Position numbers and translations under genes: made by a program. This document shows positions 1 to 5,984 of a stretch of DNA of 5,984 nt, piece after piece. Each line of letters starts with the position of its first letter. The first letter of the stretch is position 1. Origin of the DNA: an uncultured Pseudomonadota bacterium (lineage in GTDB: Bacteria; Pseudomonadota; Gammaproteobacteria; Burkholderiales; Usitatibacteraceae); contig CAMPHL010000179.1 of assembly GCA_946885905.1 (NCBI GenBank), forward strand, positions 1 through 5,984, given 5' to 3'. The notes below the pieces were generated by a model. That model was given only the letters and a program-made list of their open reading frames with translations, was not told where the DNA came from and did not search any database.

Positions 1-444
1 GTAGGAGGCGAGCCCCACGCCTTCCCAGCCGACGAAGAGCACCAGCAGCGAGCGGCCCAGCACCAGCAGCAGCATGAAGAAGAGGAACAGGTTCAGGTAC
101 GCGAAGTAGCGCGCGTACGACTTGTCTTCCCTCATGTAGCCCATGGAGTAGATGTGGATGAGCGAGCCCACGCCGGTCACGATGAGCGCCATCACGGCCG
201 TGAGGCGGTCGAAGTAGAACGCGATCTCGAGCGCGTCGGTGCCCGCGACGAACCACGTGTAGGCGATCTCGACGATGGGCGCGCCGCCCGTGGCCTGGAG
301 GTCGAGGAAGTACTTCACCACCACCGCGAAGGCGGCAAGCGGCAGGCCGCAGCCCACGATGTTCACGAAGCGCTTGCCCAGGCGGTTGCCGAGGAGGCCG
401 TTCAGCAGGAAGCCCAGCAGCGGGAGCAGGACGATCAGCTTCAT
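1..444 (-). CDS. nuoL: NADH-quinone oxidoreductase subunit L, N-terminal part (cut by window edge)
   Basis: NuoL is the distal antiporter-like, proton-pumping subunit of the complex I membrane arm. The first 148 residues are visible; the reading frame is still open at base 1 and the full protein is usually about 600-670 aa. The ATG at 444 overlaps the nuoK stop as ATGA, and no clear Shine-Dalgarno sequence precedes it, so translation is probably coupled to nuoK. The protein begins MKLIVLLPLLGFLLNGLLG, a typical NuoL first membrane helix, followed by hydrophobic segments near residues 28-45, 82-100 and 112-135. Family motifs are present: DRLTAVM near residue 85, then IHIYSMGYM, and FVGWEGVGLASY at the end. 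The Glu in the last motif (residue 141) matches the pumping glutamate E144 of E. coli NuoL. MrpA-type antiporter subunits share this fold, but the position directly after nuoK identifies NuoL. Confidence 0.95.
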   Translation of the reverse strand, partial: MKLIVLLPLLGFLLNGLLGNRLGKRFVNIVGCGLPLAAFAVVVKYFLDLQATGGAPIVEIAYTWFVAGTDALEIAFYFDRLTAVMALIVTGVGSLIHIYSMGYMREDKSYARYFAYLNLFLFFMLLLVLGRSLLVLFVGWEGVGLASY

Positions 445-743
445 CCGCGCAGGTCCGCGTAGGTGCCGAGGTCGAGGGAGCGCTTGTGCCGCACCAGCAG
501 CAGCACGATCGGGATGGCGATCGCGATCTCGGCGGCCGCGACCACGAACACGAGGAACACGAGCACCGAGGCCGCCGCCGGGTCGCCCTGCTGGGAGAAC
601 ACCACCAGGCTCAGGTTCACGGCATTGAGCATCAGCTCCATGCACATCAGCATCACCAGCACGTTGCGGCGGATCACCACGCCGAGCAGGCCCAGGGCGA
701 AGATCACGACCGCGCCCCAGCCGAGGAGCTGCAGGCTATCCAT
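441..743 (-). CDS. nuoK: NADH-quinone oxidoreductase subunit K
   Basis: NuoK is a small three-helix membrane subunit of the complex I proton-pumping arm, related to MrpC. The 100-aa length is the usual one. Three hydrophobic helices are visible at about residues 5-24, 28-49 and 58-84. The two membrane glutamates required for coupled activity in E. coli NuoK, E36 and E72, occur here at exactly the same positions (MLMCMELMLNAVNL and AAAEIAIAIP). The ATG at 743 lies 8 nt inside the end of nuoJ and has the best ribosome binding site in the window, AGGAGG seven bases upstream. The stop overlaps the nuoL start. Nothing is missing or odd. Confidence 0.97.
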   Translation of the reverse strand: MDSLQLLGWGAVVIFALGLLGVVIRRNVLVMLMCMELMLNAVNLSLVVFSQQGDPAAASVLVFLVFVVAAAEIAIAIPIVLLLVRHKRSLDLGTYADLRG

Positions 744-1236
744 GCGCTTTCCTCCTGCCGATCTCGAGTACGGCGAGTGCCGCGACCACCGCGGCCACCA
801 GCAGCACCGAGACCAGCTCGAAGTGCACCCAGTACTGGTTCAGGAAGGCGTCGGCGAAGGGTTTCACCCCGTAGGGCTTGCCGGCCACGAACGGGGCGAG
901 GCCGCGCCAGACCGAGACGCCCAGCCAGCCGAGGAGGGCGAAGAAGGCGAACCCGCCCGGCAGCAGCAGCCAGGTGTAGCGCCGCTGGGCGGACTCGTCG
1001 CGGATGTCCAGCAGCATGATCACGTAGACCATGAACACCATGACCGCGCCCACGTAGATCAGGACCTGGAAGACGGCGATGGCGTGGGCGCCGAGCATGC
1101 CGTACACGCCCGCGAGCGAGAGCATGGTCGCGACGAGGGCGAGGGCCACGCGCATCGGGTGGCGCAGCACCAGCATGAGCACGGCCCCGGCGATGGCCGA
1201 TCCCACGAAGCCGTAGAGCATCGCGAGGTCCATCAT
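736..1236 (-). CDS. nuoJ: NADH-quinone oxidoreductase subunit J
   Basis: NuoJ (ND6 homologue) is a membrane subunit between NuoH and NuoK that helps link quinone reduction to proton pumping. The 166-aa length fits the family (about 165-200 aa). Five hydrophobic segments are visible, roughly at residues 5-23, 29-48, 52-76, 88-110 and 136-158. The signature of the third helix is present: QVLIYVGAVMVFMVYVIMLL (residues 57-76), including the Y-V-G-A-V-M-V stretch that forms the functional pi-bulge in ND6. The last helix carries HFELVSVLLV, matching the usual FE-x-x-S-x-L-L pattern. The start is the first of two adjacent ATG codons (1236), which overlaps the nuoI stop as ATGA; GGAG sits seven bases upstream (1244-1247). 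Residue 51 is His where I recall Glu in many homologues. Confidence 0.95.
   Translation of the reverse strand: MMDLAMLYGFVGSAIAGAVLMLVLRHPMRVALALVATMLSLAGVYGMLGAHAIAVFQVLIYVGAVMVFMVYVIMLLDIRDESAQRRYTWLLLPGGFAFFALLGWLGVSVWRGLAPFVAGKPYGVKPFADAFLNQYWVHFELVSVLLVAAVVAALAVLEIGRRKAHG
751..756 (-). promoter_or_regulatory. Ribosome binding site of nuoK
   Basis: The minus strand reads AGGAGG followed by seven bases (AAAGCGC) and the nuoK ATG. This is a perfect Shine-Dalgarno match at good spacing, lying within the 3' end of the nuoJ coding sequence. It is clearly stronger than the sites before the other genes here, so NuoK may be initiated independently as well as by coupling. Confidence 0.8.
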
Positions 1237-1766
1237 GCCTTGGCTCCGTCGTTGCGGGGGCTCCAGGACATGAGCTCGTCCTTGCCGATCCACATCGCCT
1301 CGCGGTCGAACGAGGGCAGGTTCGGGACCTCCTTCAGCATGCGGATCGCGTCCTCGGGGCAGGCCTCGACGCACAGGCCGCAGAAGACGCAGCGCGAGTA
1401 ATCGATCTCGAAGCGCGCCGGGTACTTGGGATGCTTCTCGTCGGTGGGGTCGAACGCCGCCTCGATCTCGATCACCTTCGCCGGGCACACCGTGGCGCAG
1501 AGGTTGCACGCGATGCACTGGGGCTTGCCGTCGGCGCGCTGGACCAGGATGTGCTTGCCGCGATTGGCGGGCGCATAGTCGGCGCGTGTCTCTTCCGGGT
1601 AGTAGGTGGTGAGGGCGCCCTTGCGGCCGGTCATCCAGCGCAGCATGTTGCGCACGAAGACGCGCCCGGTGATGAAGAGCCCGCGCAGCACCTCGAAGAT
1701 GTAGGCGCGCTCGTACCAGCCCATGACCGGCTCGTTCCAGTAGCGCGGGCGGGGGTAGGGTTTCAT
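1233..1766 (-). CDS. nuoI: NADH-quinone oxidoreductase subunit I (two 4Fe-4S clusters)
   Basis: NuoI carries clusters N6a and N6b, which pass electrons from NuoG to N2 in NuoB near the quinone site. The 177-aa protein has two ferredoxin motifs: CIACNLCATVCP with C84, C87, C90 and C94, and CVFCGLCVEACP with C126, C129, C132 and C136. All eight cluster ligands are present. The N-terminal segment (about residues 20-45) is amphipathic, as expected for the part that sits on the membrane against NuoH, and it is followed by TTYYPEE, close to the usual NuoI motif before the first cluster. The ATG at 1766 overlaps the nuoH stop as ATGA, with GGAG five bases upstream (1772-1775). Other 2x4Fe-4S ferredoxins share the motifs, but length and position between nuoH and nuoJ fix the identity. 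Confidence 0.97.
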   Translation of the reverse strand: MKPYPRPRYWNEPVMGWYERAYIFEVLRGLFITGRVFVRNMLRWMTGRKGALTTYYPEETRADYAPANRGKHILVQRADGKPQCIACNLCATVCPAKVIEIEAAFDPTDEKHPKYPARFEIDYSRCVFCGLCVEACPEDAIRMLKEVPNLPSFDREAMWIGKDELMSWSPRNDGAKA

Positions 1767-2905
1767 GCGCGCTCCATGAGCCAGAGGACCAGCACGGTCG
1801 CGACCAGGTTGGCGAGCGCGAGGGGGAAGAGGAACTTCCAGGCGAAGGTGAGCACCTGGTCGTAGCGGAAGCGCGGGAGCGTCCAGCGGATGAGGATCTG
1901 GAAGCTGCACACCAGGAACACCTTGGCGAGGAAGGTGGCGAGCTGCGCCGGGACGGCGAGCGCGTGCGGGAGCGCCAGGGTGGCGCCGCCCGGGAACGCG
2001 AACCCGGCGTCGCCCATGAACGGCAGGTTGTAGCCGCCGAGGAAAAGCGTGGTGAAGAGCGCGCCCACGATCGCGATCTCGATGAACTCGGCGAACATGA
2101 ACAGGCCCATCTTCATCGCGCTGTACTCGGTGTAGTAGCCGGCGATCAGCTCGCTTTCGGCCTCCGGGAGGTCGAAGGGGATGCGCTTGTTCTCGGCGAT
2201 GGCCGCGGTGAGGAAGAGCGCGGCCGCGAAGGGCTGCAGCACGATGCCCCAGGCGGGCAGGAAGCCCAGCACGGTGCCGGACTGGTAGCGCACGATCGCG
2301 TCCAGGTCCACGCTGCCGTAGACGAGCAGGAGGCCCAGGAGCGTGAGGGCCATCACCACCTCGTACGAGATCATCTGCGACCCCGCGCGCAGCGCCCCCA
2401 GCAGCGAGAACTTGTTGTTCGAAGACCAGCCGGCCAGCATCGCGCCGATGATGCTGATGCCGGCGAAGGCGAACACGATCAACAGCCCCGCGTCGAGCTT
2501 CGCGATCTGAAGGTTGTAGGTGCGGCCCTCGAACCAGCCCGCGAGCGGGGGGGCGAGCCTGCCGGGGTCGAGCATGCCGCCGAAGGGGATGACGGCGAAG
2601 ACCAGCAGGACCGGCGTGAACACGACCCACGGACCGAGCGCGTAGCCGAGCTTGTCGTACGAGTTCGGCTTGAAGTCTTCCTTGAGCAGCATCTTCAGGC
2701 CGTCGGCCATGCCGTGGAAGAGTCCCAGCCACACCAGCTTCACCTGCGTGAAGGGGATGCGGATGTAGGCGCGATTGGCCCCGATCCGGTCGGCCATGAC
2801 CGCGGCCTGCTTGCGCTCCACCCAGGTGAGCACCGTCCCGAAGCCCATCAGCACGCTGATGGCGTAGGTGATGAGCAGGACGGTGATCAGGAGGTCCTGG
2901 ATCAT
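1763..2905 (-). CDS. nuoH: NADH-quinone oxidoreductase subunit H (long form)
   Basis: NuoH (ND1 homologue) anchors the peripheral arm and forms much of the quinone access tunnel. The protein is 380 aa, against about 325 in E. coli. It has an N-terminal helix (residues 3-27) ending in WVERKQ, the DRIGANRA motif (residues 39-46), the acidic quinone-site loop from ENKRIPFDLPEAESE to AGYYTEYSAMK (residues 238-265), and the C-terminal signature WTLPRFRYDQ (341-350). About eight membrane helices can be drawn. Part of the extra length is an enlarged loop between NR and MADG (residues 46-66), about 11 residues longer than in E. coli; another part is the segment at residues 290-318, rich in Gly and Pro. 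The ATG at 2905 overlaps the nuoG stop as ATGA; only a weak GGGGTGG lies upstream (2910-2916), so coupling to nuoG is likely. Confidence 0.96.
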   Translation of the reverse strand: MIQDLLITVLLITYAISVLMGFGTVLTWVERKQAAVMADRIGANRAYIRIPFTQVKLVWLGLFHGMADGLKMLLKEDFKPNSYDKLGYALGPWVVFTPVLLVFAVIPFGGMLDPGRLAPPLAGWFEGRTYNLQIAKLDAGLLIVFAFAGISIIGAMLAGWSSNNKFSLLGALRAGSQMISYEVVMALTLLGLLLVYGSVDLDAIVRYQSGTVLGFLPAWGIVLQPFAAALFLTAAIAENKRIPFDLPEAESELIAGYYTEYSAMKMGLFMFAEFIEIAIVGALFTTLFLGGYNLPFMGDAGFAFPGGATLALPHALAVPAQLATFLAKVFLVCSFQILIRWTLPRFRYDQVLTFAWKFLFPLALANLVATVLVLWLMERA

Positions 2906-4404
2906 GTCGCCACCCCGGGCGCCGCGTGAGCGGCTGCGGCCCGGGGCCCAATCGGATCCCGGCCCATCGCCGCAACAGCGGCGGCCGGGATGACGAGAAG
3001 GCGGAAGAGTTCCTCCGCATCCACCACGCCATCGGGCTTCGCGAAGCAGGCCTCGAACTTCCCGACCTTGCCCTCGAAGTTGGTGTAGCTGCCGGCGCGC
3101 TCGGTCTGGATCGACAGCGGGATGAAGACGTCGGCCGCCGCGTGCCCGGGGTTCTCCCAGGCGTCGAGCACGATGGTGCGCGTCTTCGGGGGCGCCCACG
3201 CGAGGTCGAAGCCCTCGCCCCAGACGAGCAGGAGGTCGCAGTCCGCGGGGAGGATCATGCCGATCTCCCACTCGTGGGGAAACTGCAACAGCGCGCCGCG
3301 CGTGTTCGGGTTCTTGTCGGCGCGGATGAGGAAATCGTCCTGCATCGGCTCGCCGGGCTGCGCGAAGCGGTCGGCCTTGACGAGCGTGGTGACGCGCTCG
3401 GCGAGGAAGCTGCGGAACGCCGCGAGCTCCTCGTTGGAGGCCCAGCTGGAGACCAGCGCGACCGGATGCCGGGCGGCGGCGATGAGCGCCCGCGCCCTGT
3501 CGATCGCCGCCTCGGCCGCAACCGGCAATCCATGGACAAGGGGCCGGCTCGCGCGCTCGCGCTCGAGGAAGGTCGCGTAGTCGCGCCCCTTGTTGCAGAT
3601 CCACGGACCGTGGGGATTCTCGCGCGGGGTCACGCGCTCGATGGCGACGTTCTTGCGCGCCTCGAGCTTGTTCAACTTCCACTCGGGCTTGCGATGCCAG
3701 AGGTCGATCTCGCACCCGCGTGCGCAGCCCGGGCACACCGACGGGGTCTGCGTCAGGTACCAGACGCGCGACTTGTACAGGAACGCGGTCGAGAGCAGGG
3801 CGCCCACGGGGCACAGGTCGACCACGTTGTCCGAGTAGGCGTCGGAGGCGAAGGCGCCGTCCTCGCTGCCCCGGACGAGCGAGCTGTCGCCGCGCTGCAC
3901 GATGCCGAGGGACTTCGTCTTCGAGACCTCGTGGGTGAAGCGCACGCAGCGCGTGCACAGGATGCAGCGCTCGTTGTCGAGCGTGATGCGCGGGGAGAGC
4001 TTGTGGAACTTGGTCGAATGCACCTTGGCGTCGCGCGAGATCGAGGGCTCGCCCTGGTGCTCGTAGTGGTAGTCCTGCAGCAGGCATTCGCCCGCCTTGT
4101 CGCAGATGCCGCAGTCCACCGGGTGGTTCAGCGTCGTGAGCTGCAGCATGTTCTTGCGATAGTCGCGCACGATGTCCGAATCCGTGAGCACCTTGAGGTC
4201 CTCGGCGACCGGCATGTTGCAGCTGATCTCGACCCACGAGCGGCCCTCGACCTGCACGGCGCACACGCGGCAGTTGCCCGCGACCGAGAGGTTCGGGTGC
4301 CAGCAGAAGGCCGGGATGTCGATGCCGTTCGCGCGCGCGACCTCCATGACGGTCTGGCCGCTTTTCGCCTCGTAGGGCTTGCCGTCTATGAAGATGCGGG
4401 GCAT
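2902..4404 (-). CDS. nuoG: NADH-quinone oxidoreductase subunit G (compact form)
   Basis: NuoG carries the central Fe-S relay of the peripheral arm. The N-terminal 2Fe-2S ferredoxin domain has C34, C45, C48 and C62 (cluster N1b). The next domain has H94, C98, C101 and C107 (N5, His-ligated) and C147, C150, C153 and C198 (N4). A further set, C224, C227, C231 and C270, could hold the off-pathway cluster N7. The C-terminal molybdopterin-oxidoreductase-like domain is strongly shortened: the protein is 500 aa, whereas common NuoG are about 680-910 aa. Pieces of that domain remain, for example VALVSSWASNEEL (about 313-325) and SIQTERAGSYTNFEGKVGKF (about 437-456), followed by an Ala/Pro-rich tail. 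The ATG at 4404 gives MPRIFIDGKPYEAKSGQTV, the expected N-terminus; it overlaps the end of nuoF by 19 nt. The frame is intact, so this looks like a natural short variant, not a broken gene. Confidence 0.95.
   Translation of the reverse strand: MPRIFIDGKPYEAKSGQTVMEVARANGIDIPAFCWHPNLSVAGNCRVCAVQVEGRSWVEISCNMPVAEDLKVLTDSDIVRDYRKNMLQLTTLNHPVDCGICDKAGECLLQDYHYEHQGEPSISRDAKVHSTKFHKLSPRITLDNERCILCTRCVRFTHEVSKTKSLGIVQRGDSSLVRGSEDGAFASDAYSDNVVDLCPVGALLSTAFLYKSRVWYLTQTPSVCPGCARGCEIDLWHRKPEWKLNKLEARKNVAIERVTPRENPHGPWICNKGRDYATFLERERASRPLVHGLPVAAEAAIDRARALIAAARHPVALVSSWASNEELAAFRSFLAERVTTLVKADRFAQPGEPMQDDFLIRADKNPNTRGALLQFPHEWEIGMILPADCDLLLVWGEGFDLAWAPPKTRTIVLDAWENPGHAAADVFIPLSIQTERAGSYTNFEGKVGKFEACFAKPDGVVDAEELFRLLVIPAAAVAAMGRDPIGPRAAAAHAAPGVAT
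2958..2989 (-). other. GC-rich inverted repeat near the end of nuoG (potential mRNA hairpin)
   Basis: The two arms are CCCGGC and CGCCGC on one side and GCGGCG and GCCGGG on the other, around a 4-base loop (2974-2977), with a 4-base bulge (2964-2967) on one side only. That gives 12 G-C pairs. The repeat lies inside the nuoG coding sequence, in the low-complexity Ala/Pro/Gly tail, 53-84 bases before the nuoH ATG in transcription direction. No T-run follows, so it is not a standard intrinsic terminator. It may be a chance product of high GC, or an mRNA structure affecting stability or the nuoG/nuoH boundary. Confidence 0.4.
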
Positions 4405-5696
4405 TCGAGGTTTCCGTCGCAGAGTGAACGCTTGTGGGTGATGTAGTGCTCGAACTCGTGGCCGAACTTGGCGAGGATGCCGAGCGCCGCGTAGCCGGCG
4501 GCGTCGCCCATCCCGCAGATCGTGTTGCCGTCGTTCCATGCCGAGATCTGCTTCAGCCGCTCGATGTCGTCCGGGATGCCGTCGCCCGCGACGATGCGGT
4601 CGATGATCCGGTGCATCCAGCCCATGCCCTCGCGGCAGGGCGTGCACTGGCCGCAGGACTCGTGGTGGTAGAAACGCAGCAGCACCTGCAGCAGGCGGAC
4701 CATGCACGTGCCCTCGGCGATCACCACCATGCCGCCCGAGCCCATGCCGGAGCCGACCTTGGCGAGCGCCTCGTTGTCGAGCGTCACCTGGTCGACCTCC
4801 TCGCCCGTCACGACCTTGGTCGAGATGCCGCCGGGGATGATGCACTTCACCTTCTTCCCGCCGGGCACGCCGCCGCAGGTCTCGAAGATGAACTCGCGGA
4901 AGGGCCGGCCCGGCTCGACTTCGTAGACGCCGGGCCTGTTGATGTGCCCGGAGATCGAGATGAGCCGCGTGCCCGGGCTCTTCTTCGTGCCCGTGGACTT
5001 GAACCAGTCGGCGCCGTTGTTGATGATGCCGGCCAGGTTCGAGAGTGTCTCCACGTTGTTCACCACCGTGGGCTTCTGGTAGAGGCCGCGCACCGTAAGC
5101 CGCGGCGGGCGGTTGCGCGGGTAGCCGCGCTTGCCCTCGAGCGAGGTGAGCAGGCCCGAGGCCTCGCCGCAGATGTAGGAGCCGGCGCCGCGGTAGACGA
5201 TGAGATCGCAGGTGAAGTCGGTGCCGAACAGGGGCTTGCCGAAGTAGCCGGCCGCGTAGGCCTCCTCGAGCGCGCCGGCGAGGCGGCGGTAGGGCAGGTC
5301 GAACTCGCCGCGGATATAGATGAACGCGTGCCGGACCTGCAGCGCGTAGGCCGCGATGAGCATCGACTCCAGCAGCAGGTGGGGCGCGTTCTCGAGGATC
5401 CAGCGGTCCTTGAAGGTCCCGGGCTCGCCCTCGTCCGCGTTGGCGCAGAGGTAGTGCGGCTGGCCGTCGTTCAGGTTGATCACCGACCACTTGCGCCCGG
5501 CCGGGAAATTGGCGCCGCCGCGGCCCTGGATGCCGGAGGCCGTGACCTCGTCGGTCACCTGCTTGGGCGTCATCGTACGGATCGCCTTCTCGATGGCCGC
5601 GTAGCCGCCGCGCGCCTTGTACTCAGCCATCAGGTGCGAGGTGGGCGTGACCGGGAAGGTCATCAGCAGGCGGGCGCCGTGGCTCATGTCGTTCAC
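4386..5696 (-). CDS. nuoF: NADH-quinone oxidoreductase subunit F (FMN, nucleotide site, N3) with altered nucleotide pocket
   Basis: NuoF oxidises NADH at FMN and passes electrons to cluster N3. Counting from the GTG at 5696 the protein is 436 aa (E. coli NuoF 445). Visible motifs are GRGGANFPAGRKWS (58-71), NADEGEPGTFKDR (86-98, with E91 equal to E. coli E95), GAGSYICGEAS (170-180), KPTVVNNVETL, and ESCGQCTPCREG with N3 ligands C348, C351 and C354 plus C394. Several nucleotide-site residues differ from the family: A179 replaces the second Glu of the usual CGEET (E. coli E183), R199 replaces the Phe after PP, and V72 and R68 replace residues near the adenine. FMN and cluster motifs are intact, so the protein should be active. 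The GTG overlaps the nuoE stop (GTGA) and has GAGGG seven bases upstream; ATG at 5687 or 5663 are alternative starts. HoxF or formate dehydrogenase beta subunits are related, but the operon context shows NuoF. Confidence 0.95.
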   Translation of the reverse strand: MNDMSHGARLLMTFPVTPTSHLMAEYKARGGYAAIEKAIRTMTPKQVTDEVTASGIQGRGGANFPAGRKWSVINLNDGQPHYLCANADEGEPGTFKDRWILENAPHLLLESMLIAAYALQVRHAFIYIRGEFDLPYRRLAGALEEAYAAGYFGKPLFGTDFTCDLIVYRGAGSYICGEASGLLTSLEGKRGYPRNRPPRLTVRGLYQKPTVVNNVETLSNLAGIINNGADWFKSTGTKKSPGTRLISISGHINRPGVYEVEPGRPFREFIFETCGGVPGGKKVKCIIPGGISTKVVTGEEVDQVTLDNEALAKVGSGMGSGGMVVIAEGTCMVRLLQVLLRFYHHESCGQCTPCREGMGWMHRIIDRIVAGDGIPDDIERLKQISAWNDGNTICGMGDAAGYAALGILAKFGHEFEHYITHKRSLCDGNLECPASS

Positions 5697-5984
5697 TCGG
5701 CGGCCCTCACGCGATGCGACTCGATGAGCGCGTCGACTTTTGCCGCGTCCATCGACTCGTGGTACTTGCCATTCACGACGATCATCGGCGCCGTCCCGCA
5801 CGAGGCCATGCATTCGGCGGTAGTGAGGCTGAACTGGCCGTCCGCCGTGGTTTCGCCGGGCTTGATGCCCAGCTTGCGCGACATGTGATCGATGAGTCGT
5901 TCCGCGCCCAGCAGCGAGCAGGAGACGTTGCGGCACATCTCGATGTGGCAGCGCCCCACGGGCGCGCGGCGGAACTGGCCGTAG
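5693..5984 (-). CDS. nuoE: NADH-quinone oxidoreductase subunit E, C-terminal part (cut by window edge)
   Basis: NuoE is the thioredoxin-fold 2Fe-2S subunit (cluster N1a) that pairs with NuoF in the NADH-oxidising module. Only the last 96 residues are visible; the frame is open at the right edge and the full protein is usually about 150-170 aa, so the N-terminal helical part lies outside. The visible part begins YGQFRRAPVGRCHIEMC. All four cluster ligands are present: C17 and C22 (C-x4-C, in MCRNVSC) and C58 and C62 (C-x3-C, in AECMASCGTAPM), counted from the first visible residue. VNGKYHESM follows, as in the family. An in-frame GTG at 5959 is internal and not a start. The TGA at 5693-5695 overlaps the proposed nuoF start. 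The order E-F-G is the standard electron-input module. Confidence 0.95.
   Translation of the reverse strand, partial: YGQFRRAPVGRCHIEMCRNVSCSLLGAERLIDHMSRKLGIKPGETTADGQFSLTTAECMASCGTAPMIVVNGKYHESMDAAKVDALIESHRVRAAE
5704..5708 (-). promoter_or_regulatory. Ribosome binding site deciding the nuoF start
   Basis: The minus strand has GAGGG seven bases before the GTG at 5696, inside the last codons of nuoE. The spacing suits the GTG and is too long (16 bases) for the ATG at 5687. This supports a GTG start overlapping the nuoE TGA, although the downstream ATG codons cannot be excluded. Confidence 0.5.

Follow-up and report, generated by a model that had tools for sequence, protein, structure and literature searches.

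The window analysed here, a stretch of DNA of 5,984 nucleotides, encodes a NuoF subunit of complex I in which the nucleotide pocket carries alanine and arginine at the positions of Thermus Nqo1 Glu185 and Phe205. The two residues occurred together or not at all in the NuoF relatives that we aligned, their pairing had a single origin on a maximum-likelihood tree, and the proteins that carry them belong to a second, paralogous nuoA-N operon. Our best reading, which we hold to be probable by some distance from certainty, is that this clade comprises native proton-pumping, NADPH-accepting quinone oxidoreductases in which the pocket was rebuilt once at the root. The bacteria that carry it include some from soil and water. 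The Ala/Arg enzyme is likely to accept NADPH, with roughly even odds of a strict NADPH preference. In teaching, complex I is presented as an enzyme that uses NADH. Our searches of one open library turned up no account of a complex I that natively uses NADPH, and phrases such as 'NADPH-dependent complex I' were absent. As we discuss below, residue conservation, engineered variants of homologous enzymes, phylogeny and gene neighbourhoods bear on this reading and on its alternatives.

The window contains the following genes.

5693..5984, minus strand: nuoE, 3' part, cut by the window end (profile match)
4386..5696, minus strand: nuoF, nucleotide-binding flavoprotein subunit of complex I (profile and best solved match, Thermus Nqo1)
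2902..4404, minus strand: nuoG, short form, 500 aa (gene order and likeness to relatives' operons)
1763..2905, minus strand: nuoH (order and likeness)
1233..1766, minus strand: nuoI (order and likeness)
736..1236, minus strand: nuoJ (order and likeness)
441..743, minus strand: nuoK (order and likeness)
1..444, minus strand: nuoL, 5' part, cut by the window end (order and likeness)

All neighbours of nuoF within the window are nuo genes. The start codon of nuoF is GTG at 5696 or, more likely because the close relative P0023 from Usitatibacter palustris begins MGARLLM, ATG at 5687, in which case the residue numbers used here fall by 3. The encoded chain of 433-436 aa matched profile NF010120 with 429.9 bits, above the cut-off of 389, and TIGR01959 with 510.4 bits, below the cut-off of 558.65. 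It lacks the additional N-terminal part of FdsB/HoxF/HydB, most chains of that type having 500-630 aa (a shorter one listed, 7q4w_B, has 470 aa). Thermus Nqo1 was the closest solved structure both by sequence and by Foldseek, and the window protein has in common with canonical NuoF/Nqo1 (Thermus 2fug/3i9v, Aquifex 6hla, E. coli 7awt) the iron-sulphur cysteines, the place in the operon and the fold (TM-score 0.93 and 44% identity to 3i9v). The operons of relatives, as judged by order and likeness, run from nuoA to nuoN and include the antiporter-like L, M and N genes, with full sets seen, for example, in Usitatibacter palustris, L001, L005 and L008. By gene content and fold, the window isozyme is complex I.

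An earlier note on this DNA had claimed that NuoF reads CGEASGL in place of the usual CGEETAL, that Ala179 stands at the position of Thermus E185 and E. coli E183, and that Arg199 and Arg196 replace Thermus F205 and K202. Reading on the minus strand from GTG 5696, a gap-free alignment to Thermus Nqo1 and comparison with E. coli K-12 NuoF bore out each of these assignments, and added E. coli F203 and K200 as the equivalents of Arg199 and Arg196. The codons of the pocket are as follows.

5160..5162, minus strand: Ala179 codon (Thermus E185, E. coli E183, R. capsulatus FdsB E259)
5100..5102, minus strand: Arg199 codon (Thermus F205, E. coli F203, FdsB L279)
5109..5111, minus strand: Arg196 codon (Thermus K202, FdsB K276)
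5094..5099, minus strand: Leu200-Thr201 codons, replacing Thermus Pro206-Ala207
5481..5483, minus strand: Val72 codon, replacing Thermus F78
5493..5495, minus strand: Arg68 codon (Thermus L74), next to an invariant Lys (Thermus K75, FdsB K157)
5508..5510, minus strand: Asn63 codon in the FMN loop (Thermus G69)

The window protein lacks the negative charge at the E185/E259 position and reads NRPPRLT where the NuoF family has xKPPFPA. It also lacks F78, an adenine-side aromatic residue whose loss the earlier note did not mention. By sequence, arginines occupy Thermus positions 205, 202 and 74; an AlphaFold model of the protein fits solved NuoF and has a mean pLDDT of 83.9, with values below 50 at residues 175-177 and at residues 194-201, the segment that includes Arg196 and Arg199. 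The same note took the FMN motifs to be intact, but the FMN loop departs from the norm at Thermus G69 and R63, which are Asn and Gln in the window. In Thermus Nqo1, F70 and F205 stack on adenine, and Glu185 and a lysine hold the adenosine ribose, according to the accessible part of the source (PMC11677225). Removal of the glutamate that forms hydrogen bonds to the adenosine ribose would eliminate the charge and bulk that bar a 2'-phosphate, and Arg199, aided by Arg196 and possibly by Arg68, could supply positive charge at that phosphate, with the nicotinamide end of the pocket left standard. Electrons would then pass from NADPH to FMN, through the iron-sulphur chain and on to quinone, and protons would be pumped via the usual membrane subunits.

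Mapping of A179 and R199 across homologues, which the earlier note had proposed as a check, placed both residues together in 141 of 222 aligned rows, in one clade. The rows comprised 121 proteins (the window protein and the best 120 of 8000 scored relatives), 99 loci, Thermus and E. coli; the sample leans to kin, as the proteins were the best-listed relatives and the loci were picked by similarity. At Thermus positions 185/205, the residue pairs were A/R in 141 rows, E/F in 74, E/L in 4 and E/Y in 3, and neither Ala without Arg nor Arg without Ala occurred in any of the 222 rows. Glu was present at position 185 in all 81 remaining rows, and Arg at position 205 in none of them. The A/R rows were the 121 proteins, loci L001-L018 and two repeats (L109 and L110), and represent 137 distinct sequences over Thermus residues 95-414. 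Loci L046, L081-L087, L092, L098 and L104 yielded no frame by the reading-frame filter and were left out of the alignment; seven of these (L083-L087, L104 and L098) have the ordinary GEET/KPPF motifs. Names on the A/R rows include Usitatibacter, Casimicrobiaceae, Rubrivivax and other Burkholderiales bins, as well as Thioalkalivibrio and Gemmatimonadota bins. Searches across genomes showed the gene to be uncommon: it was found in 2 of 300 genomes in the order of Rubrivivax sp. A210, with A210 itself counted, and in 20 of 395 genomes in the Gemmatimonadota (the phylum of G013), three of which were already known; EAS and NRPPR were present in 20/20 of the Gemmatimonadota matches, 17 of them from new genomes. 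Sequencing error or a frame slip was rejected as an explanation, because the same residues occur in 140 other rows and in 20 further matches.

Comparison of the clade with canonical NuoF revealed additional changes in the pocket that were fixed or nearly so. In these residue comparisons the clade is defined by Ala and Arg themselves, and the facts independent of that definition are the joint occurrence in the 222 rows and the tree of 59 of those rows described below. Alongside E185A and F205R, L74 was replaced by Arg in all 140 Ala/Arg rows that have the column, F78 by Val in 138 of 140, and P206 by Leu in 139 of 141 (Pro in 80/81 others); A207T (Ala in 78/81 other rows), K202R and T186S were likewise fixed or nearly so. 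By contrast with these replacements, Thermus K75, E95, E97, Y180 and E184 were kept in every Ala/Arg row having the column, F70 was kept in 139 of 140, and the iron-sulphur cysteines were invariant in 33 rows. G69 is Ala in 85 and Asn in 49 of the 141 clade rows, and R63 differs too. This pattern of changed and kept pocket residues suggests that the adenosine end was rebuilt and the nicotinamide end kept. Decay of NuoF was rejected, since the catalytic residues K75, E97 and Y180 are kept and the iron-sulphur cysteines are invariant. When we asked if clade-specific changes were enriched in the nucleotide loops, taken with 2-residue margins in a set chosen by the analyst, 9 of 36 conserved loop columns had changed vs 6 of 92 elsewhere, a modest enrichment (p 0.011; p 0.0041 and 0.035 at two further thresholds). 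With a 20-residue set of core residues alone, the corresponding counts were 4/19 and 11/109 and the enrichment was not significant (p 0.24; 0.079 and 0.39). The enrichment is weak and depends on the chosen residue set.

Engineered enzymes provide a guide to what these replacements might do. Variants of E. coli complex I at NuoF E183 were reportedly constructed by Morina et al. in 2011; they lack the same glutamate but are man-made, whereas the clade is native and has Arg at position 205 and further changes. In the soluble hydrogenase of C. necator, E341 is presumably the same position as Thermus E185. The E341A/S342R variant of that hydrogenase accepts NADP+ and the wild-type enzyme is NAD+-dependent, as described in the available portion of the source (PMC10127272); its added arginine is at the next residue, whereas the arginine of the clade is at the 205 position. 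Gln or His at the equivalent glutamate of E. coli complex I is stated to confer gained NADPH affinity in the partial text of a study (PMC10671435) devoted in that text to R. capsulatus FdsB. FdsB is a soluble formate dehydrogenase subunit with Glu, Lys and Leu at the three key positions, as E259, K276 and L279 correspond to Thermus E185, K202 and F205 and to window A179, R196 and R199 (6tg9 sequence, motif alignment).

In the accessible sections of the FdsB study, the NADP+ activity of the wild-type enzyme was undetectable, the E259G, E259Q, E259R, E259K, K276A and L279R variants each gained NADP+ activity, and the E259D variant gained none (PMC10671435). L279R introduces the residue that is native at R199 of the clade, and the E259G/L279R double variant is the nearest man-made match to the Ala/Arg pocket; at the K276 position, the FdsB variant has Ala and the clade has Arg. 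According to the same sections, kcat/KM for E259G/L279R was 92.9 per min per mM with NADP+ and 101.4 per min per mM with NAD+, compared with 29,708 per min per mM for wild-type FdsB with NAD+; KM values were millimolar, combined changes were non-additive, and specificity was dual rather than switched (PMC10671435). The weak, dual activity of this variant implies that efficient native use of NADPH would depend on changes beyond these two, perhaps those found in the clade.

These properties also raise a rival reading, in which the enzyme is dual or mainly NADH-using, the pocket having been loosened to weaken nucleotide binding, for example for release or reverse flow, with NADPH use as a by-product. 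Given the dual specificity of the engineered double variant and the low reliability of the AlphaFold model at R199, we treat this rival as a serious one, albeit unlikely. FdsB variants with these changes used both nucleotides at similar low efficiency (PMC10671435, available part), loss of F78 and F205 should impair adenine stacking for either nucleotide, and the accessible part of PMC4859585 suggests that nucleotide binding and direction could vary among complex I isozymes. Fixation of arginines at positions 205, 202 and 74, however, is easier to explain by acquired phosphate binding than by simple loosening, and the genomic evidence presented below also weighs on the side of a pocket rebuilt for NADPH.

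For phylogenetic analysis, we built a maximum-likelihood tree from 59 of the 222 rows after removing the columns around both pocket loops. All 29 Ala/Arg rows in the tree fell on one side of one branch with 100/100 support, and the Ala/Arg pocket has a single origin on this tree. The sisters of the clade were two rows, from a KSB1 bin and from bacterium SpSt-1156, which have kept Glu at 185 and Phe at 205. In these sister rows (L019 and L020) the first motif reads VGDETGL, with Glu184 replaced by Asp and the preceding Cys by Val, and KPPF is kept. Elsewhere in the tree, the NuoF of L001, a metagenome bin whose record bears the title Bordetella parapertussis, grouped near rows such as P0064, which is named Casimicrobiaceae, and that title may therefore be wrong. 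The stem branch of the clade is long, at 0.71 changes per column, and clade-specific changes are found outside the nucleotide site too, as would be expected if the substitutions were lineage-specific drift that hitch-hiked on this stem and had no functional meaning. We consider such drift highly improbable: Glu occupies the position in 81/81 other rows, the homologous Glu controls the choice between NAD and NADP in FdsB and, as stated in the available text, in E. coli complex I (PMC10671435), and both residues persist over Burkholderiales, Thioalkalivibrio and Gemmatimonadota loci.

An ordinary GEET/KPPF NuoF, with Glu and Phe at the two positions, was also present in 35 of the 36 genomes that carry the Ala/Arg type. 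The sole exception in which no ordinary copy was seen was G010, whose nuo contig has 4,719 bases, and both NuoF types reside on the single contig of 3,958,808 bases that constitutes G040. The Ala/Arg NuoF belongs to a second, paralogous nuoA-N operon. Carriage of an ordinary NADH-type complex I by nearly all of these genomes is a further argument against a loosened, mainly NADH-using pocket. Complexes IA and IE of R. sphaeroides are likewise encoded by two operons in one genome and have different roles, as set out in the accessible part of PMC4859585; that part discusses both as NADH enzymes and has no mention of NADPH.

We then counted neighbours within 25 kb of nuoF in the 36 carriers, which comprise a first set of 19 and a later set of 17. 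Malic enzyme and 2-oxoacid oxidoreductase neighbours were first spotted while reading relatives, and the 17 later genomes, found by NuoF similarity alone, served as a follow-up set, although all are Gemmatimonadota and are related by descent to part of the first set. Ten neighbour proteins were scanned with NCBIfam and others were named by look; the tally was made without the weakest and repeated domain rows, and no neighbour was gained or lost thereby. Genes for 2-oxoacid:ferredoxin oxidoreductases (OFOR), GltD/Nfn-type proteins or malic enzyme were present near the Ala/Arg nuoF in 22 of 36 carriers, and around the ordinary nuoF in 0 of 35, where some zeros may reflect contig ends. In the first set, POR_N (OFOR) was found in 10 genomes; the same ten had Fer4_20 (GltD/Nfn-type), a search confined to this set of 19, and six of the ten had malic enzyme; none of the three was found around the ordinary copy (0/18). 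In the later set, malic enzyme was found in 11, POR_N in 11 and either in 12, compared with 0/17 for the ordinary copy. Fourteen of the 36 carriers had no such neighbours within 25 kb, many of them on short contigs; G014 (nearest POR_N 130 kb away on a 323-kb contig) and G391 (nearest 122 kb away) are real negatives. As the later genomes are all Gemmatimonadota, the neighbourhood may largely reflect one inheritance.

The arrangement of these neighbours varied. Usitatibacter has a por set with a GltD-PorD fusion, Rubrivivax has an NfnA/NfnB-like pair and an OFOR, and in Gemmatimonadota an OFOR and a GltD-like protein are encoded close to a formate dehydrogenase of Fds type. In G018, the genes follow one another on one contig in the order 2-oxoacid oxidoreductase, GltD-like protein, malic enzyme, then nuoA-nuoE and the 5' end of nuoF; the position used for this genome was that of the 5' nuoF piece on C105, not the 3' piece on C371. 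In many relatives, the NADP-type malic enzyme, the 2-oxoacid oxidoreductases and the GltD/Nfn-type flavoproteins encoded alongside the operon would be likely partners of the enzyme.

That 21 of the 36 carriers have POR_N no more than 25 kb away could also be taken to mean that the main electron donor is reduced ferredoxin or flavodoxin, delivered from the neighbouring oxidoreductases via NuoE/NuoG, and that the nucleotide site is degenerate. This possibility seems to us quite improbable. NuoE and NuoF are retained, with K75, E95, E97 and Y180 invariant, and strict fixation of Ala and Arg is unlike a degenerate site. Moreover, every first-set genome with POR_N nearby (10/10) also has a Fer4_20 protein close by, a type that would pass electrons to pyridine nucleotide. 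We continue to favour NADPH as the probable donor, and the seemingly NADPH-linked character of the neighbours is also difficult to match with a pocket that was simply loosened.

The malic enzymes of the carriers bear on this character. In NADP-malic enzymes, the distinguishing residues are Ser346, Lys347 and Lys362, with Lys362 as the main determinant, and 1gq2 is the pigeon NADP-enzyme, according to the accessible part of PMC3183043. Among 29 large-type malic enzymes of carriers, encoded near the operon or not, Ser346 was present in all 29, as was a Lys aligned with the Lys of the pigeon NADP-enzyme (the 362 numbering being alignment-based); position 347 was Lys in 20, Arg in 7, Gln in 1 and Gly in 1. 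The twelve best solved matches to the Usitatibacter malic enzyme were 1gq2, entries labelled NADP-dependent and four entries described plainly as 'Malic enzyme', and NAD-dependent solved entries ranked behind these twelve. E. coli MaeA lacks the NADP-type residue pattern. Judged by these residues, the malic enzymes of the carriers look NADP-type, and the pattern may be general to such bacterial enzymes.

The earlier note proposed that the preference of this native complex I between NADH and NADPH is relaxed or switched, or at the least that its nucleotide site is unusual, and this gains support, short of proof, from several directions. First, the two residues occur jointly and appear to have arisen once. 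Second, FdsB variants with comparable changes use NADP+. Third, the neighbours look NADPH-linked. With respect to other routes for NADPH, PntB was found in 13 of 19 first-set genomes, in which NADPH could also be oxidised by transhydrogenation. The other six carriers (G004, G007, G013, G015, G016 and G017), among them every one of the five first-set Gemmatimonadota bins, yielded no PntB, and these bins may be incomplete.

Other genes recur around the operon. Rubrivivax and bins related to it encode components of an extracellular electron conduit upstream of the Ala/Arg complex I, namely MtrC/MtrF-like multihaem cytochromes and/or an MtrB/PioB outer-membrane porin (L006 267-6602, L009 4467-6554 and L011 1231-6583, by Pfam), and the same kind of genes was recognised by look upstream in L005 (129-6570). 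In the Burkholderiales bin G008 (L142, ~3543-9432), an nqr set for the Na+-translocating NADH:quinone reductase adjoins malic enzyme and the Ala/Arg complex I, with NqrA assigned by Pfam and the rest by look. Next to malic enzyme and the nuo operon in G001 lie genes resembling those for fumarate reductase or succinate dehydrogenase (L139, 5196-8670; iron-sulphur domains by Pfam, others by look). Of the 17 later Gemmatimonadota genomes, nine have an Fds-like NuoF relative with GEET/KPPL motifs between malic enzyme and an OFOR gene, and Fds-type genes stand at the same place between malic enzyme and the OFOR region in L145 and L149. Several genomes also encode, close to the operon, a small protein containing a cyclic-nucleotide-binding domain that may act as a regulator or sensor (L117:4837-5316 by Pfam; L139:10884-11339, L142:11610-12089, L140:5450-5905, L141:4464-4919 and L143:9236-9712 by likeness).

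In its fullest form, the proposal is that the clade is an evolved energy-converting NADPH:quinone oxidoreductase, NADPH-preferring, which works beside the ordinary NADH complex I, is fed by a linked NADPH-producing set, and either respires NADPH directly or, in genomes that yielded no PntB, runs in reverse and draws on the proton gradient to reduce NADP+ with quinol; we regard this extended version as evenly poised between right and wrong. A clade in which the glutamate is natively lost, a partner residue carries positive charge and the neighbours look NADPH-type offers a directly testable candidate. If the proposal is true, then the NADPH pool of these bacteria would be coupled to the proton gradient without a transhydrogenase, models of their respiration would change, and the clade would provide a natural template for cofactor engineering in a superfamily where FdsB variants remain poor.
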